DNA of 64,000 bases from an uncultured Pseudomonadota bacterium (GTDB taxonomy: Bacteria > Pseudomonadota > Gammaproteobacteria > Steroidobacterales > Steroidobacteraceae), in contig CALGVD010000105.1 in NCBI GenBank assembly GCA_937920275.1, positions 1 through 64,000 of the forward strand, given 5' to 3'. Positions 47,483 to 64,000 of the stretch are shown piece after piece; within the stretch, counting starts at the first letter, position 1, and each line of letters starts with the position of its first letter. Both the position numbers and the translations under genes were made by a program. The notes beneath the pieces were generated by a model. The model was not told the origin of the DNA. It ran no database searches and worked only from the letters and a program-made list of their open reading frames with translations.

Positions 47483-48145
47483 CTAGGCCACCACCGATTT
47501 CAGGTCCACCTCCATCAGTGCGGGCTTGGTTTCCTGAAAGCTGGCGCGCGCCGCCAGCGTGTCGGCGTAAACGGCGAGTTTGGGATGCCGCGGCCGCCAG
47601 TTCAACACTTCCAACTCGGCGACGAAGCCATGCTCGATCAGGAACGGAATCAGCAGCAGCATCGATCCCACGGCAATATCGCCGGTATCGATGTCGATGC
47701 CCTTCGCCGGTTGCCGGCGCTCGAGGGTCGCCTCGATTTCAGCAATGCCACGCCTGACCTTGCGGCTTTGGCGTTCGACGAACGGTTGGCTGGGTTCCGG
47801 ACGCTGGAGTTCGAAAACGATCGCATGGATCGCTTCCATGACCCGTTCGCCGAGCAGTTTGACGAAGCGGGTGGTCAATGCCTGCTCCGCGTTCGATGAG
47901 ATCAGCGGCCGATCGGGATACCTGACTTCCAGCCATTCGAGGATGAAGCTCGAGTCATAGACCGTGGTCCCATCGTCGAGGATCAGGATTGGCAGCTGTT
48001 CGAGCGGGCTGTATTGCGCGACGCAAGTGTCTTTGCCCCAGGGGACGTCGTAGGTCACGTCGAATGGGATGGCTTTTTCCTTCAGCGCGACTGCTACTTT
48101 GCGCCCGTAAGGACTCGACAGCGCGTTGATCAATCGAATACCCAT
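47483..48145 (-). CDS. Glutathione S-transferase family protein
   Basis: A 220-residue protein with an amino-terminal thioredoxin fold (INALSSPYGRKVAVALKEKAIPFDV, LEQLPILILDDGTTVYDSSFILEWLEVRYP: cis-Pro and the DSS glutathione-binding turn) and an all-helical carboxyl domain (GIDIDTGDIAVGSMLLLIPFL). It may conjugate or reductively process an intermediate, or isomerise it as in zeta/maleylacetoacetate types. It is 43 bases downstream of the MFS gene on the same strand, so the two likely share the TetR-controlled promoter. Confidence 0.9.
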   Translation of the reverse strand: MGIRLINALSSPYGRKVAVALKEKAIPFDVTYDVPWGKDTCVAQYSPLEQLPILILDDGTTVYDSSFILEWLEVRYPDRPLISSNAEQALTTRFVKLLGERVMEAIHAIVFELQRPEPSQPFVERQSRKVRRGIAEIEATLERRQPAKGIDIDTGDIAVGSMLLLIPFLIEHGFVAELEVLNWRPRHPKLAVYADTLAARASFQETKPALMEVDLKSVVA

Positions 48146-48188
48146 GGATGCCTCCCTCCGCCGCGAATGCTTGCGGAATCTTTCGCCG

Positions 48189-49460
48189 TCAATTCACTTC
48201 TGCGCCAATGGAGACAGGTCTCTTTTCGCTCTGCCGGCCCACCATGAATGCGATCACCGAAGCCACGGCGAGCAGACTGATGCTGACCAGGACGGGCGTT
48301 TCATACGAGCCAAATCCTTCGCGCAGCCGGCCGACGACAGGTGGGCTGAACCCGAACGCCACTGCATAAACGCCGTAGAGCCATCCGTATATGCGTCCGA
48401 ACGACTGCGGCTCAAACAGGCGGGACGCCATGTAGGCCAGCAAATCCACTTCGGCCCCCAACAGCAATCCGATGAGAATGACGGCCGCGGGCGCGTACGC
48501 CAGACCGCCGAACCACAGCATTGCGATGCCAACACTGCCGAGCGCGAATACGGCAACGCCTACACGTCCCGCGGGAAAGCGGTCCAGGCTCAAACCGATG
48601 ATCAACCGTCCAGCAACGCTGGAGAAACCGATCAGCGACGCGTACCGAGCGGCAGTTGTCGGCTCTGCGCCCAGATCCTGGAAGATCGACACGAGATGAA
48701 AGACCATGCCGCCGATGCCGAGCGCCATGCTCGCGGCCAGCGCGGAGGCGAGCCAGAAGGGCCGCGTTCGCGCAGCCTCCCGAATGGACAACCCAACGGG
48801 AGGTGCGACGTGCGATGCAGCGACACGGCTCGGTTGCTCGTGGCGTCTGAATCCGAACCACACCAGCGGTGCAGCGACTATCGCCGTGACCGCGAGCGCG
48901 CAAAAAGCCGCGCGCCATCCCATTGCGGCGGTGACGGCAGCCACGACGTTAGGCACCCAGAATCCGACGATTCCAGCGCCCGTCAGCGCCATTCCCAATG
49001 CGAGTCCGCGCCGCCTGTCGAAGCCCCGGGTGATCGGACGGACGAGAACGATCGGCGTCGATCCCAGTCCCAACACGGCAATTGCGCAGTAGGCAAGCCA
49101 GAAGCCCCAGAGCGTATCGACCGTCGTTGCCATGGCGATCGTGGCCAGCCCATATGCCAGCAGGCTCATCGACCCGACAGCCGCCGCGCCAAATCGGTCG
49201 CTCAACCTGCCGACGACGGGTCCGAATATAAAGATACAGATCGTCATCAGGGTGACGGCGAACGAGATGTCGGAACGCTCCCATCCGAAGTCCGCCTGCA
49301 GTGGGCGCATCAGCGAGCCGAGGCCGTAAAACATCACGGCGTTCATGCTCGTCGCGAGGCCGATTGCGGCGCTGGCGACCAGCAGCCTTCTGCCCTCGAA
49401 CTCGTTCTGCAGGCTGGTAGCCCCTGAGGACGCAATTTGGCTCATATGGTTCATGTCCAT
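48189..49460 (-). CDS. MFS transporter (monocarboxylate/oxalate-formate-antiporter-like)
   Basis: A 423-residue permease with 12 hydrophobic segments. Landmarks: MFYGLGSLMRPLQADFGWERSDISFAVTLMTICIFIFGPVVGRLSDRFG (helices 1-2 with the loop 2-3 motif), FDRRRGLALGMALTGAGIVGFWVPNV, and GFSSVAGRLIIGLSLDRFPAGR in the second half. This group imports monocarboxylates. Divergent from the TetR gene, with an overlapping promoter/operator between, it is the probable uptake system for the island's substrate acid. Confidence 0.9.
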   Translation of the reverse strand: MDMNHMSQIASSGATSLQNEFEGRRLLVASAAIGLATSMNAVMFYGLGSLMRPLQADFGWERSDISFAVTLMTICIFIFGPVVGRLSDRFGAAAVGSMSLLAYGLATIAMATTVDTLWGFWLAYCAIAVLGLGSTPIVLVRPITRGFDRRRGLALGMALTGAGIVGFWVPNVVAAVTAAMGWRAAFCALAVTAIVAAPLVWFGFRRHEQPSRVAASHVAPPVGLSIREAARTRPFWLASALAASMALGIGGMVFHLVSIFQDLGAEPTTAARYASLIGFSSVAGRLIIGLSLDRFPAGRVGVAVFALGSVGIAMLWFGGLAYAPAAVILIGLLLGAEVDLLAYMASRLFEPQSFGRIYGWLYGVYAVAFGFSPPVVGRLREGFGSYETPVLVSISLLAVASVIAFMVGRQSEKRPVSIGAEVN

Positions 49461-49576
49461 CGGGTTGGCGCTACATCGCTTCTGCGATCGCGCAATCAGC
49501 CATGGGAAGCACGGGCCCGCCGTGCGCGCTCAGGTCCAGGGCGAGCCGCGACGAGGCTATGAACTTGCAGATGCAT

Positions 49577-49605
49577 TTTACATCAATGTCAGACAGTATT
49601 AGCAA
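49577..49605. promoter_or_regulatory. Face-to-face promoters over operator ATGTCAGACA (TetR/MFS divergent region)
   Basis: On the minus strand TTGCTA (49600-49605), a 17-base spacer and TGTAAA (49577-49582) form a promoter for the MFS-GST genes. On the plus strand the same bases read TTTACA, 17 bases, TAGCAA, a weaker promoter for the regulator gene. The spacer contains ATGTCAGACA (49586-49595), whose core TGTCAGACA is a perfect palindrome. The same motif recurs at 52264-52273 and 57275-57284. The rest of the 279-base gap shows nothing else. Confidence 0.55.
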
Positions 49606-49739
49606 GAGCCTTTTGTCGCGTTCGCCCTGATCACTCGAGGCCGATTTGTGCTTGAATCCGTCCCTGTGATGGGCACGGTGATGGCAATTGATCCGTTCAG
49701 CGCCGGCGGCGATCCTGGGCGACGACGAGAATTCGAGGA

Positions 49740-50420
49740 ATGAGTAACTTGGCAAATCCTACAGACAGTGCCCCCGGCGCTGACCAACAAGCGCGCATCG
49801 TGGAAGTCGCGGCACGCCTTTTCATCGCGCATGGTTACCACGGAGTCAGCTATCTCCACATCGCGAAGGAATTGGGGATCAACCACTCGAATATCCATTA
49901 CTACTTCCGCGTCAAGGCGATGTTGGCCGAAGCAGTGCTTCGGCAGGTTTCCGATGCCACTCTGGAATCGATGAAGAAGATCTGGATCAATCCGGAAACC
50001 ACGTTCCTTGCCAAGCTGCTCAGCACGCGCAACTGGATGTTCGAGCATTACCTGGAGTTCAACCCCGGCGGAAAGGGCGGGCACTCGTGGGGTCTTCTGG
50101 CGCGCTTTACGATGGACGCCGACGCACTTTCGCCGCCGATCAGAAAGCTGATGCGTAGCACGCTGCAGCGGCTCGATGACTACATCGCGGAGGGTGTGCG
50201 GCTCGCTGTGGAGAGCGGAGAACTTGTGGAGGATGCTCCGCAGGCAGGCATCACGCTGCAGATTTCCAGCCTGCTGTCGGTATCGGGCCAGGCGACTCGT
50301 TCAGGTAGCGGTTTCGAGCGTCTCGAAGACCTCATCAAGTGGACGTACACCTCCATCGCTCGGGCTTATGGGCGTCGTGGCGCGGGACTCGGGCAGTGGG
50401 TGCAGCCCGGAGCGCCCTAG
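49740..50420 (+). CDS. TetR/AcrR family transcriptional regulator
   Basis: A 226-residue regulator. The helix-turn-helix is in residues 18-64: QARIVEVAARLFIAHGYHGVSYLHIAKELGINHSNIHYYFRVKAMLAEAVL, matching the TetR pattern (G-S-I/L-Y-Y-H-F replaced by SNIHYYF). The carboxyl part is helical and should bind a ligand, probably an acyl-CoA of the pathway. It is divergent from the MFS permease and upstream of the catabolic genes, so local control is likely. The operator candidate is TGTYWGACA at three promoters. Repressor action is inferred from the operator position within promoter spacers. Confidence 0.92.
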   Translation: MSNLANPTDSAPGADQQARIVEVAARLFIAHGYHGVSYLHIAKELGINHSNIHYYFRVKAMLAEAVLRQVSDATLESMKKIWINPETTFLAKLLSTRNWMFEHYLEFNPGGKGGHSWGLLARFTMDADALSPPIRKLMRSTLQRLDDYIAEGVRLAVESGELVEDAPQAGITLQISSLLSVSGQATRSGSGFERLEDLIKWTYTSIARAYGRRGAGLGQWVQPGAP

Positions 50421-50711
50421 CAGGCTGGATATCCATGGTAGCTGCACACAGGGAGGTGTTGCGGAGGTTCCTCCTGCGCCCCGCCGCCCCAACGGACGGA
50501 GGGGGGCGAACCGCGCGATTTCGATCGGTCACCGCAGAATCGCTGTCCGGAAGCCTGCACAACCAGGTCCTGTGTCGTCGAGCTGCGAGAAGGAATTTGG
50601 CCGTGCACCCGTTCGAATCGACCGAACCGTCCGCCTGTCCCGGCGATCGCACTCGGCGAGAGCAAAGAGTCAATCAGCGCGCCCCGAAGCTGGGCGATAA
50701 GGAAGAAACGT
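50421..50711. other. Intergenic stretch without a supported gene
   Basis: No coding frame with family similarity. A ribosome site (aaggaag) lies just before the amidohydrolase ATG. No terminator hairpin and no copy of the TGTYWGACA motif is seen, so the amidohydrolase may be read from its own unrecognised promoter or from the regulator gene. Confidence 0.4.
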
Positions 50712-51830
50712 ATGATCAACGACTACTTCGTGATTGATGCCGTCACGCACGCGTACAACCATCTGCCGCAGAACTGGGCGGATGCCGCATATGCCGAGGC
50801 CCTGAGCGAGACGGCGTTCAACGTCGGCGCGAATCCTCCCGATGGGCGTTATGCGCTCAACCGCGATGTGTATCTGTCCGACTGGCAAGTCCCGGACCTT
50901 GCGAATGTTCTGTTTCGCGAGAGCAATACCGATGTCGCTGTGATGCATCCGGTGGCGATCACGGCCTACAAGGATGGATTTTCGTCTGTTGCCAAGGCAG
51001 TCGAGGCGCTTTCGAAGTACCCGAAGCGATTTATTGGCGCCTACGCCTGCGTGGATCCACTGAACACACGGAAGGCCATCGCTTCGCTCGAAGAGCAAGC
51101 GGAGTTGCTGAAGCCCATGGGATTGAAGCTCTATCCGACGAGCTGGGATGGATCCAAAGAACGATCGTTTCGGATGGACGACGCAAAACTGATTTATCCG
51201 CTTTACGAACGGGCTGCTCAACTGGGGTTGCGCCACATCGCCATTCACAAAGCGGTCCCGGTAGGTCCGTTTCCGGTGGGCGATGCCTATAGCCCGCAGG
51301 ATCTGGAAACCGCAGCCGCAGACTTCCCGCATCTGAGCTTCGAAATCGTTCACGGGGGAGTGTCTTTCGTCGAGGAGACAGCGTGGTTGCTCGCGCGGTA
51401 TCCAAACATCTACGTGAACATGGAGATGCTTGATATCGTCGTGGAGCGCCGGCCGCGTGCGTTTGCCCAGGTGCTGTTGGGTCTTTGCCGTATCGGGGGC
51501 GGCGAGATGTTGAAACGGCTTTTCTGGGGGTCCGGCGGAACGCTGCATCACCCCCAACCTGGGCTCGAAGCATTCGTGAAGTTCGAGTATCCCGAAGACC
51601 TTCTGGAAGGTTCCGGCCTCTTCGGGCCGATCCGGCAGATTGCTGTCGAGGACAAGCGCAACATGTTGGCGGGGACGTTTGCGCGCCTGCACGGCATCGA
51701 CATCGAAGCGTGCAAGCGCGCGATTGCGAATGATGAGTTCAGTCGGCCTTCAGGTGCTCCGCTATCGGAGCCTTACTCGACAATATCGATGGCCGAACAA
51801 GTGAAAACGTGGAGGCAGCAGCGTGTCTGA
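50712..51830 (+). CDS. Amidohydrolase-2 (ACMSD-like) family protein
   Basis: A 372-residue TIM-barrel protein. The amino end YFVIDAVTHAYNH fits the subfamily, but the usual first metal motif HxH appears as V-T-H, so one ligand is replaced. Further landmarks: HPVAITAYKDG, YPKRFIGAYACVDP, MGLKLYPTSWDGS, LRHIAIHKAVPVGPFP, SFEIVHGG and the Asp-free LFWGSGGTLHHPQPGLEAF, where metal-dependent members often have GSDxP. It could be a decarboxylase, a hydrolase or a hydratase of a cyclic or unsaturated acid. It overlaps the DUF59 gene by 8 bases, so the two are coupled. Confidence 0.85.
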   Translation: MINDYFVIDAVTHAYNHLPQNWADAAYAEALSETAFNVGANPPDGRYALNRDVYLSDWQVPDLANVLFRESNTDVAVMHPVAITAYKDGFSSVAKAVEALSKYPKRFIGAYACVDPLNTRKAIASLEEQAELLKPMGLKLYPTSWDGSKERSFRMDDAKLIYPLYERAAQLGLRHIAIHKAVPVGPFPVGDAYSPQDLETAAADFPHLSFEIVHGGVSFVEETAWLLARYPNIYVNMEMLDIVVERRPRAFAQVLLGLCRIGGGEMLKRLFWGSGGTLHHPQPGLEAFVKFEYPEDLLEGSGLFGPIRQIAVEDKRNMLAGTFARLHGIDIEACKRAIANDEFSRPSGAPLSEPYSTISMAEQVKTWRQQRV

Positions 51831-52215
51831 CCAGGAACACTCGCTGCATGCCATGGTGTTGGCGCAGCTGGATGAAATCGAGGACCCCTGCAGCGTTGCA
51901 AGCGGTACGCCCATGGGTCTGGTTGAAATGGGTCTCGTCGACTCGGTCAATGTTTCCGCTGGCGGACTAGTAGAAGTCAACCTTCGGCTGACCTCGCCTC
52001 TGTGCCACATGATCGGGTTCTTCAAGGTGGAGGCGGTGCGCAGGCTTGCAAGCCTCGCGGGAGTGACGGGCGTCGCTCTGCACGCGGATATGGGCCTCGA
52101 CTGGAGTTCAGACCGCATGAGCGCCGTGGCGCAAGGACGGCGGGCGCAGCTTGTGAGGAGAATGGAACGTCTTCGGGAGAGCGGCACGATGAGCCAAGCC
52201 ATCGACCCTGGCTGA
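51823..52215 (+). CDS. DUF59/MIP18 (PaaD-like) Fe-S-associated small protein
   Basis: A 130-residue protein from GTG 51823, overlapping the amidohydrolase end. The family pattern DPE...DLGLV appears as EDPCSVASGTPMGLVEMGLVDSV, and the Cys segment T-x-P-x-C as LTSPLCHMIGFF. Family members assist Fe-S cluster insertion (SufT, PaaD). Here the only neighbour it is tied to is an amidohydrolase, not an oxygenase; a maturation or regulatory role for that enzyme is a guess. An extra Cys sits at the position of Glu in the DPE motif. Confidence 0.75.
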   Translation: MSDQEHSLHAMVLAQLDEIEDPCSVASGTPMGLVEMGLVDSVNVSAGGLVEVNLRLTSPLCHMIGFFKVEAVRRLASLAGVTGVALHADMGLDWSSDRMSAVAQGRRAQLVRRMERLRESGTMSQAIDPG

Positions 52216-52254
52216 TGAGTCGATCCGGGCTAACGACACGCGTCCATCCCGTTA

Positions 52255-52283
52255 TTGACTTAGATGTTAGACATCTATATAAA
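52255..52283 (+). promoter_or_regulatory. Sigma-70 promoter with palindromic operator filling the spacer
   Basis: TTGACT (-35, 52255-52260) and TATAAA (-10, 52278-52283) are 17 bases apart. The spacer is itself the palindrome TAGATGTTAGACATCTA (7-base arms, 3-base centre), containing the ATGTTAGACA form of the shared motif. A protein bound here would block RNA polymerase directly. It drives the acyl-CoA synthetase and the biotin carboxylase genes; the start codon is about 75 bases downstream. Confidence 0.8.
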
Positions 52284-52357
52284 TTGCCCTGCGGGTGCTG
52301 ACGCAGACGGTCCTTCGGGACTGCGCAGCCCCGGACTGTCGAGGGGGGCGCAACGTC

Positions 52358-53827
52358 ATGCAGATTGGGTCGATGATTCGGCGCGCAGCGCTGCAATTTG
52401 GATCGGCTCCCTGCCTTACTGAGGGGGGGCGGACGCTGAGCTTTGCGGATTTTGATGCGGCCACGGACCGCGTCGGAAACGCTTTGCTGGACCGCGGCGT
52501 GCGACCTGGTGACCGCGTCAGCGTCCTGTTGCCGAACTCGATCGAGTGCCTGATCGTTTACTACGCGCTCGCCAAGGCGGGTCTGATCCGCGTGCAGCTC
52601 AATGTGCGCGAGACGCTCGCCAATCACGTCTACAAGATTGCGGACAGCGGCAGTCGCGCGGTGATTCACGACGACATTGAGGGGGTGGACGCGGAAATCC
52701 TCATCGGCCGTGATGAACTCTCGCGCATGCTCGAGGAGGGTCGCAGCGGCGCATGCATCGTCGATCGCGGACTCGAAGATCCCCTGCGCTTCGGTTACAC
52801 CGGCGGCACGACCGGCAAGTCGAAGGCCGTCATCCTCACGACGCGGGGCGAACTCGCTGAAATCAGCGCATTTCTGACCGATCTGGTGCCCCAGATTCGC
52901 AGCGGCGACGTGTTCCTGCATGCGGCGCCGATCGCGCATGCTTCCGGCGCGTTCTTTTTGCCCGCGCTGGTCCGCGGTGCGCACGCCATCGTGATGCGGA
53001 AGTTCGATGCTGCGGAGTTCCTCACGCTTGCTGAAACGAGCCGAGCCGGGTTCACGTTCCTCGTGCCGACCATGATCGCGATGTTGCTCGAAGCGCCGAG
53101 CATCGACTCCGCCAATCTGTCGTTCCAGCGCATTGCCTATGGCGCTGCCTCGATCGCGCCTGCGCTGATGAAGCGTGCCGAGACACGCTTCGGCCGGATT
53201 TTCGCGCAGTGCTACGGGCAGGCGGAGAGCCCGATGTGCATCACCTGCCTGCAGCCGGAGGACCACGATCGCGAAGCGTCCTGCGGTCGTCCGTTCACGA
53301 TCGTGGAAGTCGCGATCTGGGATGAGAACGACCGCCCACTGCCACCGGGCGAACGCGGCGAAATCGTCTGCCGCGGCCCGCAGATGATGTCCGGCTACTG
53401 GAACCGCCCGGAACAGACAGCCGAGGCTTTCCGCAATGGCTGGCTCCATACGGGCGACATTGGTGTCATGGATGAGGACGGATACTTCTATATCGTCGAT
53501 CGCAAGAACGATCTGTTGATCTCCGGTGGTTACAACGTTTATCCGCGCGAAGTCGAAGACGTACTGATGGCGTTCCCGGACGTCATCGAGGCCGCGGTCG
53601 TTGGTCTGCCTGACGAGAAATGGGGCGATCGGGTGGTTGCCGTCGTGACCGGCCGGCCTGGCCTGAGTGCGGATGCCTTGATGCAGTTCGCCCGCGCCAA
53701 TCTGTCGCCCTTCAAGCAGCCCAAGGCCATCGAAATCTGGCCTGAGTTGCCAAAGAGCGCAGCAAACAAGATTCTGAGGCGTACCGTGCGCGACCACTTG
53801 GTCGGCCAGGCCGCATCCGGGCGCTGA
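52358..53827 (+). CDS. Acyl-CoA synthetase (AMP-forming)
   Basis: A 489-residue ANL-superfamily ligase from ATG 52358 (G-rich ribosome site before it; the frame start at 52295 would lie at the transcription start). Motifs: YTGGTTGKSKAVILT (P-loop), YGQAESPMCITCL, MSGYWNRPEQTAEAFRNGWLHTGDIG, VDRKNDLLISGGYNVYPREVEDVL and the carboxyl-terminal catalytic Lys region KSAANKILRR. It should activate the substrate acid to its CoA thioester with ATP. Transcribed from the operator-controlled promoter and followed after 38 bases by the carboxylase genes. Substrate unknown; the family ranges from fatty to aromatic acids. Confidence 0.93.
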   Translation: MQIGSMIRRAALQFGSAPCLTEGGRTLSFADFDAATDRVGNALLDRGVRPGDRVSVLLPNSIECLIVYYALAKAGLIRVQLNVRETLANHVYKIADSGSRAVIHDDIEGVDAEILIGRDELSRMLEEGRSGACIVDRGLEDPLRFGYTGGTTGKSKAVILTTRGELAEISAFLTDLVPQIRSGDVFLHAAPIAHASGAFFLPALVRGAHAIVMRKFDAAEFLTLAETSRAGFTFLVPTMIAMLLEAPSIDSANLSFQRIAYGAASIAPALMKRAETRFGRIFAQCYGQAESPMCITCLQPEDHDREASCGRPFTIVEVAIWDENDRPLPPGERGEIVCRGPQMMSGYWNRPEQTAEAFRNGWLHTGDIGVMDEDGYFYIVDRKNDLLISGGYNVYPREVEDVLMAFPDVIEAAVVGLPDEKWGDRVVAVVTGRPGLSADALMQFARANLSPFKQPKAIEIWPELPKSAANKILRRTVRDHLVGQAASGR

Positions 53828-53865
53828 ACGTAGCGGGCAGCGCGCAAAATTCGAGGAGGGTTGCG

Positions 53866-54348
53866 ATGAAAGGTAGAACCGAGGACATCACCACACTGAT
53901 CGAACTGTTCAGGTCGTCCGGATGGGACGAAATGCACATCGAGATCGATGGCTTGCAGCTTTTTCTGTCCACCGATCCGGCAGCCCGACTCGGTGCGGGA
54001 ACTATGGCGTTGCCGGCGAGCGAGCCTCGCTCTGTGCCGCAGGCTGCGGCGATTGCATCCGAGGTGTCAGCCAAGCCTGCGGCGGCGGCGATCGAGATTC
54101 CCGGCCACTGGATTGCGATTACGGCACCGAACCTCGGCACGTTCTATCGCTCACCGAAGCCGGGCGCAGCGCCATTCGTGGAAGTCGGCCAGACGGTCGA
54201 GGCCTCGAGCGACGTCTGCCTGCTCGAAGTCATGAAGCTTTTCACGACGGTCAAGGCCGGTCACAAGGGCACGATCCGGCGCGTCTGCGTCAACGATGCC
54301 GATATGGTCGAGCATGCCCAAACGCTGTTCTATATCGACCCCAGCTGA
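53866..54348 (+). CDS. Biotin carboxyl carrier protein
   Basis: A 160-residue carrier with ribosome site gaggaggg. The amino part (DITTLIELFRSSGWDEMHIEIDGLQLFLS) is the AccB-like helix-strand segment, an Ala/Pro linker covers 47-76, and the biotinyl domain runs from about 85. The biotin site is EVMKLF with Lys124; E-A-M-K-M is more usual, but E-x-M-K is kept. It carries CO2 between the carboxylase and the carboxyltransferase coded next. Only two bases separate it from the carboxylase gene. Confidence 0.93.
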   Translation: MKGRTEDITTLIELFRSSGWDEMHIEIDGLQLFLSTDPAARLGAGTMALPASEPRSVPQAAAIASEVSAKPAAAAIEIPGHWIAITAPNLGTFYRSPKPGAAPFVEVGQTVEASSDVCLLEVMKLFTTVKAGHKGTIRRVCVNDADMVEHAQTLFYIDPS

Positions 54349-54350
54349 TC

Positions 54351-55730: not shown

Positions 55731-57192
55731 ATTTCTCGACGAGACGATCCGCGACGGCCAGCAGAGCCTGTGGGGCATGCGCATGCAGGCGGGCATGGCA
55801 CTCGCTGCCACGCCGCTGCTCGACCGTACCGGGTTCACGACGATCGATCTCACCGGTAGCACGTACATCGACGTACTCACCCGTTTCTGCCACGAGAACT
55901 ACTGGGACGGCATGGACCTGCTCGTGGGTTCGATGCCGAACACGCCGACGCGTGCCGGCATGCGCTCCAACGCCATTTCCACGTTCGGCGTCAGCCCCGA
56001 TGCGTTGATGGACCTGTGGGTGCGGCGATTGTCGGCGCATGGCGTGCGCTCGTTCTGGATCTACGACGTGCTGTTCAATATCGACAAGATGCTGCGCCTG
56101 GCCAAGGTCGCAAAGGAATCCAAGTCCACCACGACGGTGGCGGGCGCCATCATGTTCACGCTTTCGCCGGTGCACAGCGATGACTTCTTCGCTGACAAGG
56201 CAGACAAGCTCTCGGCGTCGACCGACGTCGATACGATCCTCCTCTACGACACCGGTGGCGTGCTCGAAAAGGAGCGCCTCAAGACCTTGGTGCCCGCCAT
56301 CATCAAGAAATCCCGCGGCAAGCCTATCGAGTTTCATGCCAACAATCTGTTGGGTATCTCGGCGAAGGCGTACCTGGATGCGGTCGACCTCGGCGTCACC
56401 GTGCTACACACGGCGAGTCGGCCGATGGCCAACGGACCCTCGGTGCCCTCGACGGAGATCATGGCGCACAACGTCGAGCTCAAGGGGCATACGCACAATC
56501 TCGATACGTCGCTGTTCAAGCCCGTGGCCGATCACTTCGAAGCCGTCGGCAAGGCGGCTGGCTTTCTGGTGAACCAATACGCCGAGTACGACGTGCTGTC
56601 GATCGAGCACCAGATTCCCGGCGGCATGATGGGCACCTTCAAGGCGCAGCTTGCGCAGCACAACATGAGCGGCAAGCTGGGCGAGGTGCTCGAGGAGACC
56701 GCGCGCGTGCGCCGTGAGCTGGGTTATCCCGGGATGGCGACGCCGTTCAGCCAGATCGTCGGAATTCAGGCGGTGCTGAACGTCATCACGGGTGAGCGGT
56801 ATCGCACTGTCCCCGATGAGGTCGTGCAGTATGCGGCCGGTTTCTTTGGCCAGGCAGTGGGACCGATCGACCAGAACGTCCTGGATCGGATTCTGGCGTC
56901 ACCGCGAGCCAAGGACGTGGTGGCCAGCCCGCCGCCCCAGCCGACGCTCGAGGATCTCAAGAAGCAATACCACACGGATGACGAGGACGAACTCATTCTT
57001 CGCATTACCGTGCCCGAAGCGGACCTTGCCCGCATGCGCGCAGCCGGCCCGATCAAGACCAGCTACCCGCTGCTCTCCACGCCGGAGCTCGAGCAGGTGC
57101 GCAAGCTCCTGAAAATGACGAACCTCCCCGTCGTGGACATCAAGTCTCCGGGCCTGACGCTCTCGCTGCGCCGCACACGCTCCAGGAACTGA
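55717..57192 (+). CDS. HMGL-type carboxyltransferase subunit, atypical active site
   Basis: A 491-residue protein of the pyruvate-carboxylase/oxaloacetate-decarboxylase-alpha/transcarboxylase-5S fold. The first barrel strand keeps LDETIRDGQQSLWGMRM (Asp13, Gln16). Two usual metal ligands are changed: the carbamoylated Lys before DMAG appears as Tyr177 (LLYDTGGVL), and the His-x-His pair appears as His207-Ala-Asn209 (FHANNLLG). The later part GYPGMATPFSQIVGIQAV and NVITGERYRTVPDEVVQYAAG matches the PC/OAD carboxyl-terminal domain. With carrier and carboxylase it forms a three-subunit complex; the CO2 acceptor is unlikely to be handled exactly as pyruvate is. Family residues are recalled, not aligned. 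Confidence 0.85.
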   Translation: MAHIEFLDETIRDGQQSLWGMRMQAGMALAATPLLDRTGFTTIDLTGSTYIDVLTRFCHENYWDGMDLLVGSMPNTPTRAGMRSNAISTFGVSPDALMDLWVRRLSAHGVRSFWIYDVLFNIDKMLRLAKVAKESKSTTTVAGAIMFTLSPVHSDDFFADKADKLSASTDVDTILLYDTGGVLEKERLKTLVPAIIKKSRGKPIEFHANNLLGISAKAYLDAVDLGVTVLHTASRPMANGPSVPSTEIMAHNVELKGHTHNLDTSLFKPVADHFEAVGKAAGFLVNQYAEYDVLSIEHQIPGGMMGTFKAQLAQHNMSGKLGEVLEETARVRRELGYPGMATPFSQIVGIQAVLNVITGERYRTVPDEVVQYAAGFFGQAVGPIDQNVLDRILASPRAKDVVASPPPQPTLEDLKKQYHTDDEDELILRITVPEADLARMRAAGPIKTSYPLLSTPELEQVRKLLKMTNLPVVDIKSPGLTLSLRRTRSRN

Positions 57193-57274
57193 ACGTAGCC
57201 GCAAGGCCGGCCACACGCGCCTGACACTGGGCAGGCATTGCGACGCTCGCAAGCACGCTCAAAATTAGACATGC

Positions 57275-57307
57275 ATGTTTGACACAACAATCAGTACTTG
57301 TTAACTT
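57275..57307 (+). promoter_or_regulatory. Promoter and operator ATGTTTGACA before the acyl-CoA dehydrogenase
   Basis: The motif at 57275-57284 ends in a consensus -35 TTGACA (57279-57284). After 17 bases comes TAACTT (57302-57307) as a weak -10. It is preceded by TTAGACATGC, giving a second inverted half (AGACATGCATGTTT). The start codon is at 57341. The motif overlaps the -35 itself here, in contrast to the spacer position at the other two sites. Confidence 0.55.
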
Positions 57308-57340
57308 TCGACTCGCGCGCTCAATGCCGAGGGAAACACG

Positions 57341-59152
57341 ATGCTCAATCCCACTTTTCCGCCTGCCCCCGTCGCCACAACCCCGGCACCCTTCGATCCG
57401 AAGGAATTCGGGCATGTCGCGCCCGATACGGAAGGGCTGAATTTCTTCGGCATCGATCAGAGTCTGCAATCGGCACTGCGTGTTTACGCCAGCCGTGAGG
57501 TGTTCGCGCACTTCGAGCCGATCATGCAGCGCTTCGGTGAGGTGGCCGGCGGAGAGCTCGATCGCCTGTCACGCATCGTCGATCGCAATCCGCCCGTGCT
57601 GGAGCAGCGCGATCGATATGGTCGCGATCTCGATCGCATCGAGTATCACCCGGCCTATCACCAGATGGAGAAGATCGGTTTCGAGGACTTCCAGCTGCAC
57701 TCCATGTGCCATCGGGAGAACGCTCTCGGCTGGACAGGCCACGTGCCGCAGCTGATCAAGTACGCGTTCCGATACATGTTCGCGCAGTCCGAGATCGGCA
57801 TGATGTGTCCGCTCAACATGTCGGACGCCACCACGCATGTCTTGAAGTCGTACGGGAGCGAGGAGCTCAAGGCGTATCTGCTTCCCAAGCTTCTTGCGCC
57901 GACCATGAAGGAAATGTGGCGTGCCACTCAGTGGATGACCGAGAAGGCGGGCGGCTCAGATGTCGGCGCCCTCGAGACGGTAGCGCGCAAGGAAAACGGC
58001 GTGTGGCGCCTGTATGGCGAGAAGTGGTTTGCTTCCCACACGGACGCGCATGTCGCGCTGGCGCTGGCCCGGCCAGAAGGCGCGCCGCCCGGTATCAAGG
58101 GTGTGGCCATGTTTGCGCTGCCTCGTTATCTGCCGGATGGTTCGCGCAACAAATACCGGATCGTGCGCATCAAGGAAAAGCTCGGAACGCGCTCGCTCGC
58201 AAGCTGCGAAGTGATGCTTGAAGGCGCCGAAGCGTACCTCGTGGGTCGCGAGGACCGCGGCATCAAGCAGATGATGGAAGAAGTGAACATGTCGCGGCTG
58301 TCGCATGGCGTGCGCGCCGCGGGCCAGATGCGCAGGGCCTACAACGAATCCATGCAGGTGGCGCGCAATCGCTCTGCGTGGGGCAAGCAGCTGATCGAGC
58401 ATCCGCTGATGCGCCGCCAGTTGATCAAGATTCTCGTGCCTGCCGAGCAGGGTGTATCTGTATTCATGCTCGCAGCTTCGCAGCTCGATCAGGCCAACGC
58501 GGGCTCCGAATCCGCCAAGCAGGTGGTGCGGATGCTGACGCCGCTGATCAAGATTCGCGCGTGTCGCGATGCGGTGATCGCTGCGCGGGCCGCTCTCGAA
58601 TCCCGAGCGGGCAACGGCGTCATCGAGGAATGGGTGAATCCCAAACTGGTACGCGACGCGCATATCGCACTCGTTTGGGAAGGCACGAGCAACATCAACG
58701 CGATCGATGTGATTCGGCGTGCCGTCGGCAAGTCGCGGGCGCATGAGCCGTTGAAAGCGGTGGTGCTGGACAGGCTCGGCTCTCTCACGCGCCTGCCGGA
58801 TGCCTACCGGTTGCGTTTGCAGAAGGCGCTGGACCGGGCGTTTGATTTCGCGAATGACACCGCCGCGTCGTCTGCCAACGAGCATCTCGCCCGGCAGGCT
58901 GCAAGCGGGATGTACCACGCCGTCAGCGCCGTGATGCTGGCCTGGGAGGCCTGCCAGCCATGCGGGGACGTCCGCAAGCTTCTGACCAGCCGATTCGTGC
59001 TGGAGCATCGGCTCGAGCCGATCGATCCGCTGTCCCCGCCCGATGGCGCATGGGAAGACGCAGCCTACACCATGCTTTTCGACGAGACCTGCAAGGTCAC
59101 GCTCGCCGAAACCGTCGCCCTGGTATCGAACAGCAGCCGTCGCGTTCGCTGA
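57341..59152 (+). CDS. AidB-like acyl-CoA dehydrogenase
   Basis: A 603-residue flavoprotein, longer than ordinary acyl-CoA dehydrogenases (about 380-400) because of an amino extension and a carboxyl-terminal helical domain (about 470-600), as in AidB. Motifs: GMMCPLNMSDATTHVLKSYG, QWMTEKAGGSDVGALETVA, YGEKWFASHTDAHVALALARPEG, SRLSHGVRAAGQMRRAYNESM, RSAWGKQLIEHPLMRRQL and the catalytic VWEGTSNINAIDVIRRAVG with Glu. The intact Glu supports true dehydrogenase activity. It starts a second transcription unit from the motif-bearing promoter, followed by the CoA-transferase after 17 bases. Confidence 0.92.
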   Translation: MLNPTFPPAPVATTPAPFDPKEFGHVAPDTEGLNFFGIDQSLQSALRVYASREVFAHFEPIMQRFGEVAGGELDRLSRIVDRNPPVLEQRDRYGRDLDRIEYHPAYHQMEKIGFEDFQLHSMCHRENALGWTGHVPQLIKYAFRYMFAQSEIGMMCPLNMSDATTHVLKSYGSEELKAYLLPKLLAPTMKEMWRATQWMTEKAGGSDVGALETVARKENGVWRLYGEKWFASHTDAHVALALARPEGAPPGIKGVAMFALPRYLPDGSRNKYRIVRIKEKLGTRSLASCEVMLEGAEAYLVGREDRGIKQMMEEVNMSRLSHGVRAAGQMRRAYNESMQVARNRSAWGKQLIEHPLMRRQLIKILVPAEQGVSVFMLAASQLDQANAGSESAKQVVRMLTPLIKIRACRDAVIAARAALESRAGNGVIEEWVNPKLVRDAHIALVWEGTSNINAIDVIRRAVGKSRAHEPLKAVVLDRLGSLTRLPDAYRLRLQKALDRAFDFANDTAASSANEHLARQAASGMYHAVSAVMLAWEACQPCGDVRKLLTSRFVLEHRLEPIDPLSPPDGAWEDAAYTMLFDETCKVTLAETVALVSNSSRRVR

Positions 59153-59169
59153 TCCGCCGGCGGAAAACC

Positions 59170-60375
59170 ATGAGCGAGCAGCAGAACAAGAAGCCGACCG
59201 GACCGCTGAGCGGAATCCGCGTAGTCGACATGACATCCGTGCTGATGGGACCGTACGCGACGCAGATACTCGCGGACTACGGTGCCGACGTGATCAAGAT
59301 CGAGGACGAAAGCGGTGATCTGCTGCGCATGGGCGGCGCGATGCGCAATCGCGGCATGGGTCAGCTGTTCTTGCAGTGCAACCGCAACAAGCGCAGCGTC
59401 GTGCTCGACGCGAAGTCCGAAGAAGGCCGTGCTGCGCTGCTGCGCATGTGCGAGAAGGCCGATGTCTTCATCACGAATGTTCGCCCCGCCGCGCTGTCAC
59501 GTCTGAAGCTGGGCTACGAAGACATCAAGGCCCACAACCCTGCCATCGTGTACGTCTCGCTCGTCGGATACGGGCAGCGCGGCCTGTACAAGGCCCGCCC
59601 GGCGTTTGACGACTTGATGCAGGGAATCTCGGGAATCTCAGCGCTCATTGGCCGTGCGCAAGGCGTCGACCCGCAGTTCGTGCCGTTGAACATCGCGGAC
59701 AAGATCGCCGGTATCACGGCGGCGCACGCAATCCTCGCCGCGCTGCTTCACAAAGAGCGCACTGGCATCGGCCAAGCCGTCGAAGTGCCGATGTTCGAGA
59801 TCCTCGCTCAGTTCGTGCTGAGCGATCACTTCGGCGGCTATGGGTTCGATCCACCGATCGGGCCTATCGGCTACAACCGGTTGCTTTCGCGCACTCGACG
59901 GCCGTATCCGACCAGCGATGGATTTCTGGCGATCGTCGTATACACGAACCAGCACTGGAAGCGGTTTTTCGAGTTGATCGGCCGGCCGGAGGAGTGCTCC
60001 GCGAATCCGCTTTTCCACGATCACGCGACGCGCACGCGAAGCTACGACGACGTGCATCGCTTTCTGGCCGTGGAGATGAAAAAGAAGACAACGGCTGAAT
60101 GGCAGGCCGCGTTTGACGCGCACGACATTCCCTGGGCCGCGGTGAACAGCATCGAGGAACTGGTTGAGGATCCGCATCTCCGTTCGGTCAATCTCGTGCA
60201 GACGATCGATCATCCCACCGAAGGCCGAATACGCCTGGTGGCCTCACCCATCAATTTCAGCGAGACGCCTTCCACGCTCTACCGTCATCCACCGAGCTTC
60301 GGCGAGCACACCGCCGAGGTCATGGCGGAGTTCGCACCGGCCGCTGCAGCTCCCGTGTCAGCCTCCCGTGATTAA
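59170..60375 (+). CDS. CaiB/BaiF family (class III) CoA-transferase
   Basis: A 401-residue protein from ATG 59170. LSGIRVVDMTSVLMGPYATQILADYGADVIKIEDESGDL, NRNKRSVVLDAKSEEGRAALLRM, the active-site Asp147 in RPAFDDLMQGISGIS, GIGQAVEVPMFEILAQFVL and SFGEHTAEVMAEF. It is the closest in-window relative of the broken gene at 26382-27611, aligning over the full length. It could pass CoA from a product thioester to the incoming acid. The SDR gene downstream starts within its last bases (GTGATTAA overlap). Confidence 0.95.
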   Translation: MSEQQNKKPTGPLSGIRVVDMTSVLMGPYATQILADYGADVIKIEDESGDLLRMGGAMRNRGMGQLFLQCNRNKRSVVLDAKSEEGRAALLRMCEKADVFITNVRPAALSRLKLGYEDIKAHNPAIVYVSLVGYGQRGLYKARPAFDDLMQGISGISALIGRAQGVDPQFVPLNIADKIAGITAAHAILAALLHKERTGIGQAVEVPMFEILAQFVLSDHFGGYGFDPPIGPIGYNRLLSRTRRPYPTSDGFLAIVVYTNQHWKRFFELIGRPEECSANPLFHDHATRTRSYDDVHRFLAVEMKKKTTAEWQAAFDAHDIPWAAVNSIEELVEDPHLRSVNLVQTIDHPTEGRIRLVASPINFSETPSTLYRHPPSFGEHTAEVMAEFAPAAAAPVSASRD

Positions 60376-61144
60376 TCCGCTGTCCATGGAAGGCCGCACC
60401 GTCGTCGTCACCGGCGCCGGTCAAGGCATCGGACTCGCCATTTCCCGGCTGATCGTCGAGATGGGCGGCCAGGTCGTCGGGGTCGACATGAGCGCCGATG
60501 CATTGGCGCGCGCCGTCAGTTCCTTGCCGGACGGTCGGTTCGTGCCCGTGGTGGGTAGCGTCACCGACAGCGCGGTGGCCAAGGCATCGCTGCAGGCCGG
60601 CCTCGCGGCTTTCGGTGCGGTTCACGGGCTCGTCAACAACGCTGGAATCAGTCGTCCGGCGATGATCGAGAAGATGTCGATGGAAACGTGGCAGTCCGTG
60701 CTCGACGTGCACGTGAACGGGTCGTTCATCTTTACCCAGGTCGTTGGCCAGCATCTGATCGAACGCGCCAAAGGCGGCGAAAAGGATCCGGGCGCGATCG
60801 TTTTCGTGGCCTCTGATGCCGGGCGCCGCGGCAGCCTCGGCCAGATCAACTACGCCGCCGCGAAATCGGCGATGTTCGGCATGACCATGACGGTCGCGCG
60901 CGAGTGGGCTCGGCACAACATCCGCGCGAATGCCGTGTGCTTCGGCGTCGTGGAGACGGCGATGACCGAGACCGTGCGCAACGACGAGCGCTTCCGTGAC
61001 AAGTACCTGGAGCAGATTCCGCTGGGACGATGGGCTACGCCGGAAGAGGCTGCGATGCCCACCGTGTTCCTGCTGTCCCGTGCAGCCTCCTACATCACCG
61101 GCCAGGTGCTGTCAGTGAGTGGCGGATTCACCATTGCCATGTAG
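60368..61144 (+). CDS. Short-chain dehydrogenase/reductase
   Basis: A 258-residue SDR from GTG 60368 (VINPLSMEGRTVVVTG); ATG 60386 is the alternative and would cut six residues. Gly motif TGAGQGIG, NNAG, catalytic VFVASDAGRRGS and NYAAAKSAM with Tyr/Lys, NAVCFGVVETAMTE, and end GQVLSVSGGFTIAM. It is likely a hydroxyacyl-CoA or alcohol dehydrogenase of the pathway. It is coupled to the CoA-transferase by an 8-base overlap. Different from the neighbouring SDR in sequence, so two separate steps are likely. Confidence 0.9.
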   Translation: MINPLSMEGRTVVVTGAGQGIGLAISRLIVEMGGQVVGVDMSADALARAVSSLPDGRFVPVVGSVTDSAVAKASLQAGLAAFGAVHGLVNNAGISRPAMIEKMSMETWQSVLDVHVNGSFIFTQVVGQHLIERAKGGEKDPGAIVFVASDAGRRGSLGQINYAAAKSAMFGMTMTVAREWARHNIRANAVCFGVVETAMTETVRNDERFRDKYLEQIPLGRWATPEEAAMPTVFLLSRAASYITGQVLSVSGGFTIAM

Positions 61145-61182
61145 AGAGCGGCACGGTGTCGCGTTGCGACGGGGGGTACGAC

Positions 61183-61980
61183 ATGCGGTTTGAAACCAAG
61201 GTTGCAGTGATCACCGGCGGGGCGTCGGGCATCGGCGCCGCGACGGCGCGGCTCATGGCACGCGAGGGCGCGCGCGTCGTGATCGGTGATCTGGCCGATG
61301 CGAGTGGCGAGGCTCTTGTGCGCGAACTCGGCCCTGATCGTGCGGCGTACCTGAATTGCGATGTCGCGCAGGAGCTTGACGTCAATGCATTGATCGCCGA
61401 AGCCATGCGCCGCTTCGGCCGCATCGATGTCCTGTTCAACAATGCCGGCGTGACCGGCATGGGCTCAACGACGGACACCGACCCCGCGCTGTGGCGTCGA
61501 GTGATCGAGGTTGATCTGTTCTCCGTCTACTACAGCTGCCGCGCTGCGATTCCGCACATGATTCAAAGCGGCGGCGGCGCCATCGTCAACAACGCGTCGA
61601 TCTCCGGCATGCACGGTGACTTCGGCATGTGCTCGTACAACGCCTCCAAGGGAGCGGTCATCAATTACACGCGCAGCCTGGCGCTCGACTGTGCGGGCTC
61701 CGGGATCCGGGTCAACGCGATTTGCCCCGGTGTCACCGATACGCCGATGGTCGCCGGCGTTGCACAGATTCCGGGATTGCTGGATGCATTCCTCGCGCCA
61801 GTGCCGATGCAGAGGCTCGGCAGGCCGGACGAGATTGCGGAGGTCGTGGCCTTCCTCGCATCGAGTGCGGCTTCGTTCATGACGGGTGCGATCGTTCCGG
61901 TCGACGGCGGCCTGTCGGCTACGACGGGGCTTCCGAATCTCAATAAATTCATGGCGAGCATCAAGGACCAGTACGCGTGA
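61183..61980 (+). CDS. Short-chain dehydrogenase/reductase
   Basis: A 265-residue SDR from ATG 61183 with a G-rich ribosome site. TGGASGIGAATARLM at the amino end, VIGDLADASGE (Asp after strand 2 suggests NAD), NNAGVTGMG, NNASISGMHG with catalytic Ser, SYNASKGAVINYTRSLALD and GAIVPVDGGLSATTGLP. The tail (NLNKFMASIKDQYA) extends past the core. Its last base is shared with the next start (TGATG). An NAD-dependent 3-hydroxyacyl-CoA or similar dehydrogenase fits a beta-oxidation-like order ending in the thiolase. Confidence 0.93.
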   Translation: MRFETKVAVITGGASGIGAATARLMAREGARVVIGDLADASGEALVRELGPDRAAYLNCDVAQELDVNALIAEAMRRFGRIDVLFNNAGVTGMGSTTDTDPALWRRVIEVDLFSVYYSCRAAIPHMIQSGGGAIVNNASISGMHGDFGMCSYNASKGAVINYTRSLALDCAGSGIRVNAICPGVTDTPMVAGVAQIPGLLDAFLAPVPMQRLGRPDEIAEVVAFLASSAASFMTGAIVPVDGGLSATTGLPNLNKFMASIKDQYA

Positions 61981-63206
61981 TGTCTGATGCATCTGTCGAG
62001 GGGGTCGACGCGATGGGAATGACGATCGGAACCTATCTTCCGCCCTGGGGGACGTCCGATGGGCGCGTCCTGGGCTATGACGAGGATGCGCTCACCATGG
62101 CGGTGGAAGCGGCTCGCCTGGTGGTCGACGCAGGAGCGGCGGTCAGCCGCGTCGTATTCGTCAGTCGCGAGTTGCCGCTGCTGGAAGGTGGCAACACAGC
62201 TCCGCTGCTCGCGGCACTCCGTTTGCCTGACACACTCGAAGTGGTCGAGCAGATCGGCGGCGCACCCGCGGTGCTCGATGCGCTGATGTCGGCCGCTCCG
62301 TCGACCCTGGTGGTCGCGGTGGACGCCGTGGCGCCGGCGGGCGCGGCGGCCGCCTTGATCGGTGCCCGCAATCCGCTGACGTTCGCCGGGCGGGCGCAGC
62401 GCAGTTTGCCGCAACGTACGCGGCTCGCTGATGGCCACAGCTATCGCGATGACGATCCGCGCCTGATGCGCGAAAGCGGTGTGCGCACCTCGCTGGCTGC
62501 TGCACAGCTTGCTGAAAAGCCTCTGGTGATGGCCGGTGCGTCTGCGCGTGACGCAGCCGCGTGGTCCGCAGCCGGCGCCCCGACCCTGCCGACGCTCGGT
62601 GCGTCGAGCACATTGTTTGCGCTTGCGGCGCTCGTCGATTCCTCGCGCAGCGGTCTGGTTGCCGCCATCGAGCAGGCAGCTCTCAGTGCTGCAACGTTCG
62701 CTGCCGCGGGCTCGACGGTCCGGCGCCACGAGCGAACTCCGCAGAAGGCGGTTGTCCGCAAGCGATCTCCCGGAGGCGACATCAAGTTGTCGCTGGCTGC
62801 CTATGATCGGGCGTTCAAGTCGAAGGTCGGTTGGCAGGCGGGCCAATGCACGAGCTGCGGATTGATGTCGATCCCGCCACGGTTTCATTGCCTGGGGTGC
62901 GGCGCGGATGATCAATGGACACTCGCCGCGCTGCCGCGCACCGGCACGGTATACACGACCACGACGATTCATGTCCCCGTACCTTCCCTCGAGTCGCCGT
63001 ACACGTTGGCCGTCGTGGAATGCGATGGCACGGACGTGCGCTCGCTGATGCACGTCACCGATGTGCCACCGGGTCGCGTGGCGATTGGCGCCCACGGACG
63101 GCTCGTGCTGCGCAGGGTGGCGATGCGTACGGGCGTGCCGGACTATGGCCATGCGTTCTCGCCCGATCCAGCTGCGAGCCTGACCGCCGCGGGAGGTGCG
63201 ACATGA
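61980..63206 (+). CDS. HMG-CoA-synthase-like domain fused to DUF35 Zn-ribbon/OB-fold protein
   Basis: A 408-residue protein from ATG 61980. Residues 12-240 look like a thiolase-fold HMG-CoA synthase relative (MGMTIGTYLPPW, DEDALTMAVEAARLVVDAG, GGAPAVLDALMSAA), but no active-site Cys stands in the expected segment, so it is probably structural or inactive. Residues 270-400 are DUF35: Zn ribbon with Cys290, 293, 304 and 307 (CTSCG ... CLGCG), then an OB-fold (GTVYTTTTIHVPVPSLESPYTLAVVE). DUF35 proteins partner thiolases and the Ltp2-type aldolases of steroid side-chain cleavage. The next gene is such a thiolase, overlapping by 4 bases. Confidence 0.85.
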   Translation: MSDASVEGVDAMGMTIGTYLPPWGTSDGRVLGYDEDALTMAVEAARLVVDAGAAVSRVVFVSRELPLLEGGNTAPLLAALRLPDTLEVVEQIGGAPAVLDALMSAAPSTLVVAVDAVAPAGAAAALIGARNPLTFAGRAQRSLPQRTRLADGHSYRDDDPRLMRESGVRTSLAAAQLAEKPLVMAGASARDAAAWSAAGAPTLPTLGASSTLFALAALVDSSRSGLVAAIEQAALSAATFAAAGSTVRRHERTPQKAVVRKRSPGGDIKLSLAAYDRAFKSKVGWQAGQCTSCGLMSIPPRFHCLGCGADDQWTLAALPRTGTVYTTTTIHVPVPSLESPYTLAVVECDGTDVRSLMHVTDVPPGRVAIGAHGRLVLRRVAMRTGVPDYGHAFSPDPAASLTAAGGAT

Positions 63207-64000
63207 GGCGCGTTGCCATCGTCGGAGCGGGCATGACGTCCTTCGGCGAGCACTTTTCGCGTGGCATCAAGGAACTCATTCCGATGGCGCTCGGCGAAGC
63301 GCTGGCGTCGGTGGACAAGGGCATGGATCGCCGCGATATCGGCGCTGCCTGGCTGGGAGAGGTTGGTACCACCGACGGCTTTGGCGCCGGCATTCTGGCG
63401 GACTCCTGCGGGCTCCTCGATATTCCCGTGACGCGCACCGAGAATGCGTGCGCCACGGGGCAGGACATCATTCGGCAGGCGATCTATGCGATCGCCTCGG
63501 GCTACGTCGATGTGGTGGCGGCCGTGGGTGCTGACAAAGTCCGGGACACCTCGTCGAGCTCCACATTCTGGGACTGGATGGCGCAGACCCGCGACATGGC
63601 CTGGGACTTCCCGCTGGGACTGCTGGCACCTGCCAATTTTGCGCTGCACGCGTCGCGCTATCTGCACGAAGCGCCGGCCACGCGCGAACACATGGCAATG
63701 ATCGCCGTGAAGAATCACTTTCACGGCGTCAAGAATCCCAAGGCGCAGCTGCGCAACGAAATCACGGTAGAGCAGGTGTTGAAGGCGCCGCTCGTGGCGG
63801 AGCCCTTCGGCATGTTCGATTGCACTCCGCAGTCCGATGGCGCCGCGACGGTGCTGCTGGTGGCCGAGGAACATGTCGCCAGGTATACCGATCGGCCAGT
63901 CTGGGTGCTGGGCTTCGGGCTCGGAATCGATCGGGTCATGCATCAGCACAAACGCGACATGACGTCCTTCACCTGCACGGTGAAGGCGGCCAAGGCCGCC
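63203..64000 (+). CDS. SCP-x/Ltp-type thiolase family protein (partial, cut by right edge)
   Basis: 266 codons from ATG 63203 run to the edge. MRRVAIVGAGMTSFGEHFSRGIKELIPMALGEAL and LADSCGLLDIPVTRTENACATGQDIIRQAI are typical of the SCP2/acetyl-CoA acetyltransferase group, with Cys83 at the nucleophile position. GYVDVVAAVGADKVRDTSS and AVKNHFHGVKNPKAQLRNEIT follow, then CTPQSDGAATVLLVAEE. The carboxyl-terminal HxxP/Cys motifs are beyond the window, so thiolase and aldolase (Ltp2, lacking Cys) cannot be fully told apart, though Cys83 favours a thiolase. It is the functional partner of the DUF35 protein. Confidence 0.9.
   Translation, partial: MRRVAIVGAGMTSFGEHFSRGIKELIPMALGEALASVDKGMDRRDIGAAWLGEVGTTDGFGAGILADSCGLLDIPVTRTENACATGQDIIRQAIYAIASGYVDVVAAVGADKVRDTSSSSTFWDWMAQTRDMAWDFPLGLLAPANFALHASRYLHEAPATREHMAMIAVKNHFHGVKNPKAQLRNEITVEQVLKAPLVAEPFGMFDCTPQSDGAATVLLVAEEHVARYTDRPVWVLGFGLGIDRVMHQHKRDMTSFTCTVKAAKAA

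Follow-up and report, generated by a model that had tools for sequence, protein, structure and literature searches.

The window considered here is the whole 64,000-nucleotide stretch; it comes from an uncultured gammaproteobacterium, forms the start of a 93,487-bp contig, and holds most of a 32-kb gene island. The centre of the island is a three-component biotin-dependent carboxylase, encoded next to an AMP-forming acyl-CoA ligase and followed by a set of genes typical of β-oxidation. The features of the island that lie within the window are as follows:

47483..48145, minus strand: glutathione S-transferase (GST; PF13409/PF13417), at the left edge of the low-GC island
48189..49460, minus strand: MFS importer, monocarboxylate/oxalate-formate-like (PF07690; best NCBIfam models L-lactate and oxalate/formate MFS, below cut-off)
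49579..49595, plus strand: operator-like site 1, in the MFS/TetR divergent region; TACATCAATGTCAGACA
49740..50420, plus strand: TetR-family regulator (PF00440), putative owner of the operator-like sites
50712..51830, plus strand: amidohydrolase family 2 protein (PF04909), with a 69% relative beside a DUF59 gene on Sphingopyxis pSFD01
51823..52215, plus strand: DUF59/MIP18-like protein (FeS_assembly_P, PF01883), overlapping the amidohydrolase gene
52257..52273, plus strand: operator-like site 2, within the TTGACT-17-TATAAA promoter of the ligase operon
52358..53827, plus strand: AMP-forming acyl-CoA ligase (PF00501/PF13193); the open reading frame (ORF) runs from 52295, and homologues begin MQIG at 52358
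53866..54348, plus strand: biotin carboxyl carrier protein (BCCP; PF00364), biotin site EVMKL from residue 121
54351..55730, plus strand: biotin carboxylase (BC; PF00289, PF02786, PF02785)
55717..57192, plus strand: OadA/5S-type carboxyltransferase (CT; PF02436; PDB sequence matches 2nx9, 5ks8, 1rqb), with Tyr177 and Asn209
57268..57284, plus strand: operator-like site 3, upstream of the acyl-CoA dehydrogenase operon; GACATGCATGTTTGACA
57341..59152, plus strand: AidB/ACDH-11-type acyl-CoA dehydrogenase (ACAD; PF00441, PF18158, PF02770; PDB 6sd8, 4y9j), candidate catalytic Glu in WEGTS
59170..60375, plus strand: CaiB-type (family III) CoA-transferase (PF02515; best NCBIfam model succinate--glutarate CoA-transferase, below cut-off)
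60386..61144, plus strand: short-chain dehydrogenase/reductase 1 (SDR1; PF13561; best PDB 2et6), like the (3R)-hydroxyacyl-CoA dehydrogenase domain of MFE-2
61180..61980, plus strand: SDR2, secondary-alcohol dehydrogenase-like (PF13561; BudC model NF052558 above cut-off, 314 vs 270 bits)
61977..63206, plus strand: DUF35/OB-fold protein (OB_ChsH2_C, PF01796), matching ChsH2 and archaeal DUF35 proteins
63203..64000, plus strand: SCP2-type thiolase (PF22691, PF00108; PDB 7yvy, 6esq, 6hsj, 7pxp), whole gene 63203-64363

Every family that an earlier note on this DNA had listed between 47483 and 64000 was recovered in its place by ORF and Pfam analysis, with the correction that the thiolase gene extends beyond the window, to 64363. 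The cluster itself continues to ~79.8 kb, after which housekeeping genes follow. Past the thiolase it comprises, in order, a TonB receptor, a cytochrome/Vgb-like gene, SDR3, a PQQ dehydrogenase, a second TonB receptor, a Vgb-like gene, and a MaoC hydratase resembling that of MFE-2. The GC content is 62.8% across the island (~47.4-79.8 kb) and 67.1% in the rest of the contig, which is consistent with horizontal acquisition; the island was probably acquired in this way. Diagnostic catalytic motifs were found in the ligase, BCCP, BC, ACAD, CoA-transferase, SDRs and thiolase. An ARAGORN call of tRNA-Pro at 60445-60539 falls within the SDR1 coding sequence and is probably false.

The promoter regions of the island share an operator-like motif. 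The 9-mer TGTYWGACA occurs five times in the contig (both strands), always in an island promoter region: the MFS/TetR divergent region, before the ligase, before the ACAD, before the first TonB receptor, and in the PQQ/TonB receptor 2 region. Reading of the intergenic DNA also revealed a perfect palindrome, TAGATGT-TAG-ACATCTA, at 52261-52277 in the ligase promoter. The extended pattern KACWKNNMTGTYWGACA has six exact matches in the 2.7-Mb genome searched, five of them within the island, while its backward control has none in that genome. The sixth match (C68:1980) lies in other promoter-like sequence before a HipA-like gene and was treated as chance. For the count in the contig, a comparison with shuffled sequence overstates the significance, as the motif was taken from these very sites and in part coincides with -35 elements; the genome-wide restriction to the island is the stronger fact. 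A consensus promoter scan returned no sigma-70 match, and predicted terminators were fewer than in shuffled sequence. Because the motif precedes both operons, the TonB receptors and the regulator, the island units look like a single regulon, with the local TetR most likely acting on the putative operator sites. The earlier note had held that independent regulation of the units would speak against a common route, and the shared motifs argue against such independence.

Four carboxyltransferases were used as queries against genome contigs, which yielded 80 loci, and all of their ORFs were clustered; the comparison of core and synteny covers 84 loci, and the CT alignment and tree 84 rows. Across these loci the constant unit is BCCP-BC-CT, usually joined by the ligase (66-75% identical in other loci), and the remaining genes vary. 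No other locus among the 84 has the full gene set of the island, and only ligase-BCCP-BC-CT is conserved; together with the shared operator-like motifs, this outcome of the synteny search proposed in the earlier note supports its view of a single regulated route of catabolism whose gene set has no match. The viral contigs searched contained no relatives. Since the five operator-like sites are confined to five promoter regions, and dozens of other genomes show synteny for the carboxylase core, the gene set is more than chance.

The carboxyltransferase of the window belongs to a distinct family. It matches PF02436 (PYC_OADA) strongly, at 94 bits, and PF00682 (HMGL) only below cut-off, and combines a TIM barrel with the PYC_OADA domain, which places it in the OadA/PycB/5S superfamily. 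Its AlphaFold model (mean pLDDT 81) matches 2nx9 and 1rqb (Foldseek E ~1e-29). When compared with 2nx9, 5ks8 and 5S, the RD motif is kept, Tyr177 replaces the carbamylated Lys and Asn209 replaces the second metal His, such that two of the four expected metal-site residues are replaced. Both substitutions are invariant in 84/84 CT rows from alpha- and gammaproteobacteria. Lys and HxH are retained in the Hpe-type carboxyltransferases L132, L124, L129, L039 and L128 and in the two correctly framed PycB/OadA-type rows to which the motif comparison was confined (the rooting of that tree was not used), while Rhodococcus kinase-type rows have Glu in place of Lys and keep HxH. Identity is ~37% (36-37%) to the Hpe type, as measured on stand-ins including L129 and the reference L132, from the Rhizobium leguminosarum plasmid pRlBT01c, rather than on HpeB or AcvD themselves, and 44-48% to the Rhodococcus kinase-type enzymes. 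Given that Tyr177 and Asn209 are invariant and that the BC and BCCP motifs are intact, the altered site reads as a conserved change rather than decay, and the enzyme may work without the usual metal site.

In most loci the core is accompanied by three kinase-like genes, P8 (a swivel domain), P7 and a PPDK-like gene, together with a thiolase, an SDR, SurE and GntR. A second group, comprising sphingomonads and G017 (the only sampled genome from the window's own family), lacks kinase genes and carries two ACADs, an enoyl-CoA hydratase (ECH), DUF35, SCP2-type thiolases and a metallo-β-lactamase-fold protein. In the CT tree the window falls within a 21-row clade (SH-aLRT 100) nested among kinase-associated rows. 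This clade comprises 17 rows with β-oxidation genes (ACAD/ECH/DUF35/SCP2-thiolase), the window, and L043, L044 and L051, with one genome counted twice (L036 and L048). None of its 21 rows has kinase genes in the locus; outside it, P8/P7/PPDK kinase-like genes are present in 56 of 63 rows. At the genome level, P7 is missing in both the window genome and G017 (positive controls G213 and G091 match), and from 13 of the 15 clade genomes overall, the window included, with 4/4 kinase-type controls matching; in two Novosphingobium members of the clade a P7 gene lies elsewhere in the genome. A full-length HpeH homologue was not found in the window genome and was found in 1/15 clade genomes, and the sole PPDK_N protein of the window genome, whose C-terminal region is of the PEP-binding kind, looks like a conventional PEP synthase. 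With its CT inside the clade, no P7 in its genome and β-oxidation genes adjacent, the window sits in a kinase-free branch, which has lost the kinase-like genes carried by P8/P7/PPDK-associated clusters.

The P8 swivel/P7/PPDK-like set accompanies this carboxylase family at L038:1658-8268, L125, L126 and most kinase-type loci (the L043-L122 set). For P7 (~515 aa), sequence searches of Pfam, NCBIfam and PDB gave no match, nor did a fold search with its confident model (pLDDT 82). The set, with SurE or a Tyr-phosphatase nearby, appears to be related to the HpeHI logic and is uncharacterised; no P7/PPDK-carboxylase pathway was found in the literature searched. On plasmid pA of Rhodococcus pyridinivorans P23 (L130), BCCP-CT is followed by two ACADs with no kinase annotated alongside, and the CT has Glu for Lys; this locus is a possible actinobacterial parallel of the kinase-free arrangement.

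The accessory genes have a more varied distribution. Members of the kinase-free group have in common with the window SDR2 (59%, the homologue in Sphingobium L046), SDR3 (53%) and the PQQ enzyme (54%). In that group there is no orthologue of the window's ACAD, CoA-transferase, DUF35 protein or amidohydrolase, and neither the DUF35 fusion nor the amidohydrolase has close relatives in 274 genomes of the class. The fusion consists of an extra N-terminal HMG-CoA-synthase-like stretch (GYDEDA), assigned by eye with no Pfam call; a 46% relative in Mycobacterium branderi is paired with a β-ketoacyl-synthase-like gene. The overlapping amidohydrolase-DUF59 pair (50712-52215) recurs on Sphingopyxis pSFD01, where its neighbours are GST, NAD(P)/FAD oxidoreductase, LLM and TonB genes, as well as on Rhodococcus pRB98. 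Because the amidohydrolase-DUF59, ACAD-CoA-transferase and DUF35-thiolase pairs are each found separately elsewhere, the full set is best described as a local mosaic. The proposal of one conserved pathway therefore holds only for the ligase-carboxylase core, with functionally parallel, non-orthologous β-oxidation genes beside it.

Taken together, our analysis suggests, with a probability of about one half, that the regulon carboxylates an unphosphorylated ketone, which would then undergo CoA ligation, cleavage, and β-oxidation by MFE-2/SCP2-like enzymes. The TonB receptors may import a hydrophobic alcohol or ketone, and SDR2/SDR3 or the PQQ dehydrogenase could oxidize a secondary alcohol to the ketone. 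The carboxylase would add CO2 to the carbon beside the carbonyl without prior phosphorylation, the ligase would convert the resulting β-keto acid to its CoA thioester, and the thiolase, assisted by DUF35, would cleave it. The remaining branched or alicyclic acyl-CoA could pass through the AidB-type ACAD, MaoC, SDR1 and the SCP2-type thiolase, with the CoA-transferase perhaps recycling CoA; bulky, branched or alicyclic substrates would fit these enzymes. Gene content, core synteny, the kinase-free clade, the missing kinases, the motif changes, the common operator-like sites and the GC step are direct observations; from them we infer the substrate class, the reaction order, the role of each accessory enzyme (GST, the amidohydrolase-DUF59 pair and the CoA-transferase among them) and the identity of the regulator. 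Ketone carboxylation is the most economical reading since a keto-type CT and a co-conserved ligase occur with no kinase. Carboxylation is placed before ligation because this is the order in the Hpe/Acv/Xcc pathways, and because a ketone substrate would offer the ligase a carboxylate only after that step.

Several observations weigh against this proposal. The characterised relatives are only ~37% identical, as judged on the stand-ins L132 and L129, and HpeCBA is inactive on unphosphorylated ketones (PMC9618137), so the substrate class is extrapolated. The closest CT relatives, L043 and L044 (80-81%), adjoin LIV-type ABC importers with no ACAD nearby in our ORF reading, and another substrate is thus possible there. 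The window's accessory genes are not orthologous to those of sister loci. The operator motif comes from the very promoters in which it was counted, and two of its sites coincide in part with a TTGACA -35 element.

The earlier note had placed CoA activation first: the ligase would act on an acid (branched, alicyclic or isoprenoid), and the acyl-CoA would then be carboxylated by the biotin enzyme, in the manner of citronellate/geranyl-CoA, prior to β-oxidation. The position of the ligase gene upstream of the carboxylase genes, the resemblance of the MFS protein to monocarboxylate carriers and the LIV-type importers at L043/L044, typical of carboxylates, all accord with this order. To our knowledge, however, known acyl-CoA carboxylases (geranyl-, methylcrotonyl- and propionyl-CoA type) use AccD-type carboxyltransferases; no AccD/carboxyl_trans domain was detected by Pfam among the cluster and island genes scanned, and the window CT has a keto-substrate type of fold with the PYC_OADA domain. 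Moreover, in the characterised complexes that share this architecture, the substrate is a ketone and CoA ligation comes later (PMC9618137). We consider activation first unlikely, and less likely than carboxylation followed by CoA ligation. It is more improbable still that the carboxylase core acts on one substrate and the ACAD-to-thiolase operon on another, the two being chance neighbours on an acquired island: accessory pairs do occur apart from the carboxylase in other organisms, and a 148-bp gap with its own promoter-like sequence divides the two operons, but the same motif precedes both operons, the TonB receptors and the regulator, and sister loci independently pair this carboxylase with ACAD, hydratase and DUF35-thiolase genes. 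Finally, the two replaced metal-site residues might indicate a degenerate or decarboxylating CT on an island that fixes no CO2, but the invariance of Tyr177/Asn209 across 84 rows and the retention of BC and BCCP with intact motifs make this very improbable.

If the ketone reading is correct, a carboxylase branch minus the kinase and two metal-site residues would show the spread of this chemistry beyond phenolic ketones. In a wider and unlikely reading, an OadA-type branch that has given up both its upstream kinase and its catalytic metal site would carboxylate, in aerobic bacteria, aliphatic or alicyclic (e.g. isoprenoid) ketones that are neither activated nor phosphorylated. This would supply genes for ketone carboxylation, which has reportedly been described mainly in chemical terms, in the work of Rontani and co-workers on isoprenoid ketone metabolism. 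The altered active site raises the question of how an OadA-type enzyme stabilises an enolate without the usual metal site, and the kinase-free branch gives a concrete enzyme set that is open to test.

Aerobic catabolism via carboxylation is rare, and to the knowledge of the Hpe authors no further aerobic pathway for aromatics relies on it (PMC9618137). HpeCBA carboxylates the acetyl group of 4-phospho-acetophenones, not free ketones, and dephosphorylation, CoA ligation and cleavage follow; AcvABCDEF of Sphingobium lignivorans SYK-6 is homologous to Hpe, and XccBCA of Aromatoleum aromaticum EbN1 is the HpeCBA homologue for 4-hydroxyacetophenone (PMC9618137). HpeCBA, AcvCDE and XccBCA are characterised catabolic carboxylases of the HMGL type (PMC9618137, PMC13101465), which removes the suggestion that such enzymes lack a catabolic precedent. 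The gene order at L132 matches hpeH-I-C-A-B-D-E, apparently a complete Hpe-type cluster. Three further loci (L124, Sphingomonas bisphenolicum pBAR1; L129, a Pseudomonas putida YC-AE1 plasmid; L039, in G120) carry an Hpe/Xcc-type carboxylase, an HAD phosphatase and, at the kinase place, a Tm-1-like ATP-binding protein that could be an alternative kinase.

Like the island, the recently described Hpe (hpeHICBADEF, Rhodococcus rhodochrous GD02) and Acv systems for lignin ketones (hydroxyphenylethanones) are catabolic and aerobic, and combine a three-component biotin carboxylase and OadA-type CT with a CoA ligase and β-keto cleavage. Unlike them, the island has no kinase, neither a two-component nor a single-chain phenol kinase of HpeHI/MarK type, and no HAD, SurE or Tyr phosphatase (HpeD) among the Pfam matches of its genes; its ligase is of another type, its CT (~37% identical to the stand-ins) has Tyr/Asn for Lys/His, and a β-oxidation set follows. 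XccBCA, compared by description, reportedly shares the subunit architecture (PMC9618137) but has kinase homologues nearby. The OadA alpha subunit, transcarboxylase 5S and PycB share the fold and CT-PYC_OADA domain order, but keep the Lys and HxH metal ligands; the window CT is 28-31% identical to them and lacks a central-metabolism context. Proteobacterial P8/P7/PPDK-associated clusters are closest (CT 64-75%, ligase ~70%, same core order), but have three kinase-like genes and often a phosphatase; those on Rhodococcus plasmids are at 44-48% and keep HxH. The Bbs (benzylsuccinate) operon likewise has a family III CoA-transferase, an ACAD, two SDRs, DUF35 and a thiolase in one run, but membership was rejected, as BbsA (27.5/250 bits) and BbsB (184/750 bits) fall far below cut-off and a fumarate-addition enzyme is absent. 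Overall, the island is real, coherent and uncharacterised, a variant of Hpe/Acv/Xcc chemistry with precedent in those systems.

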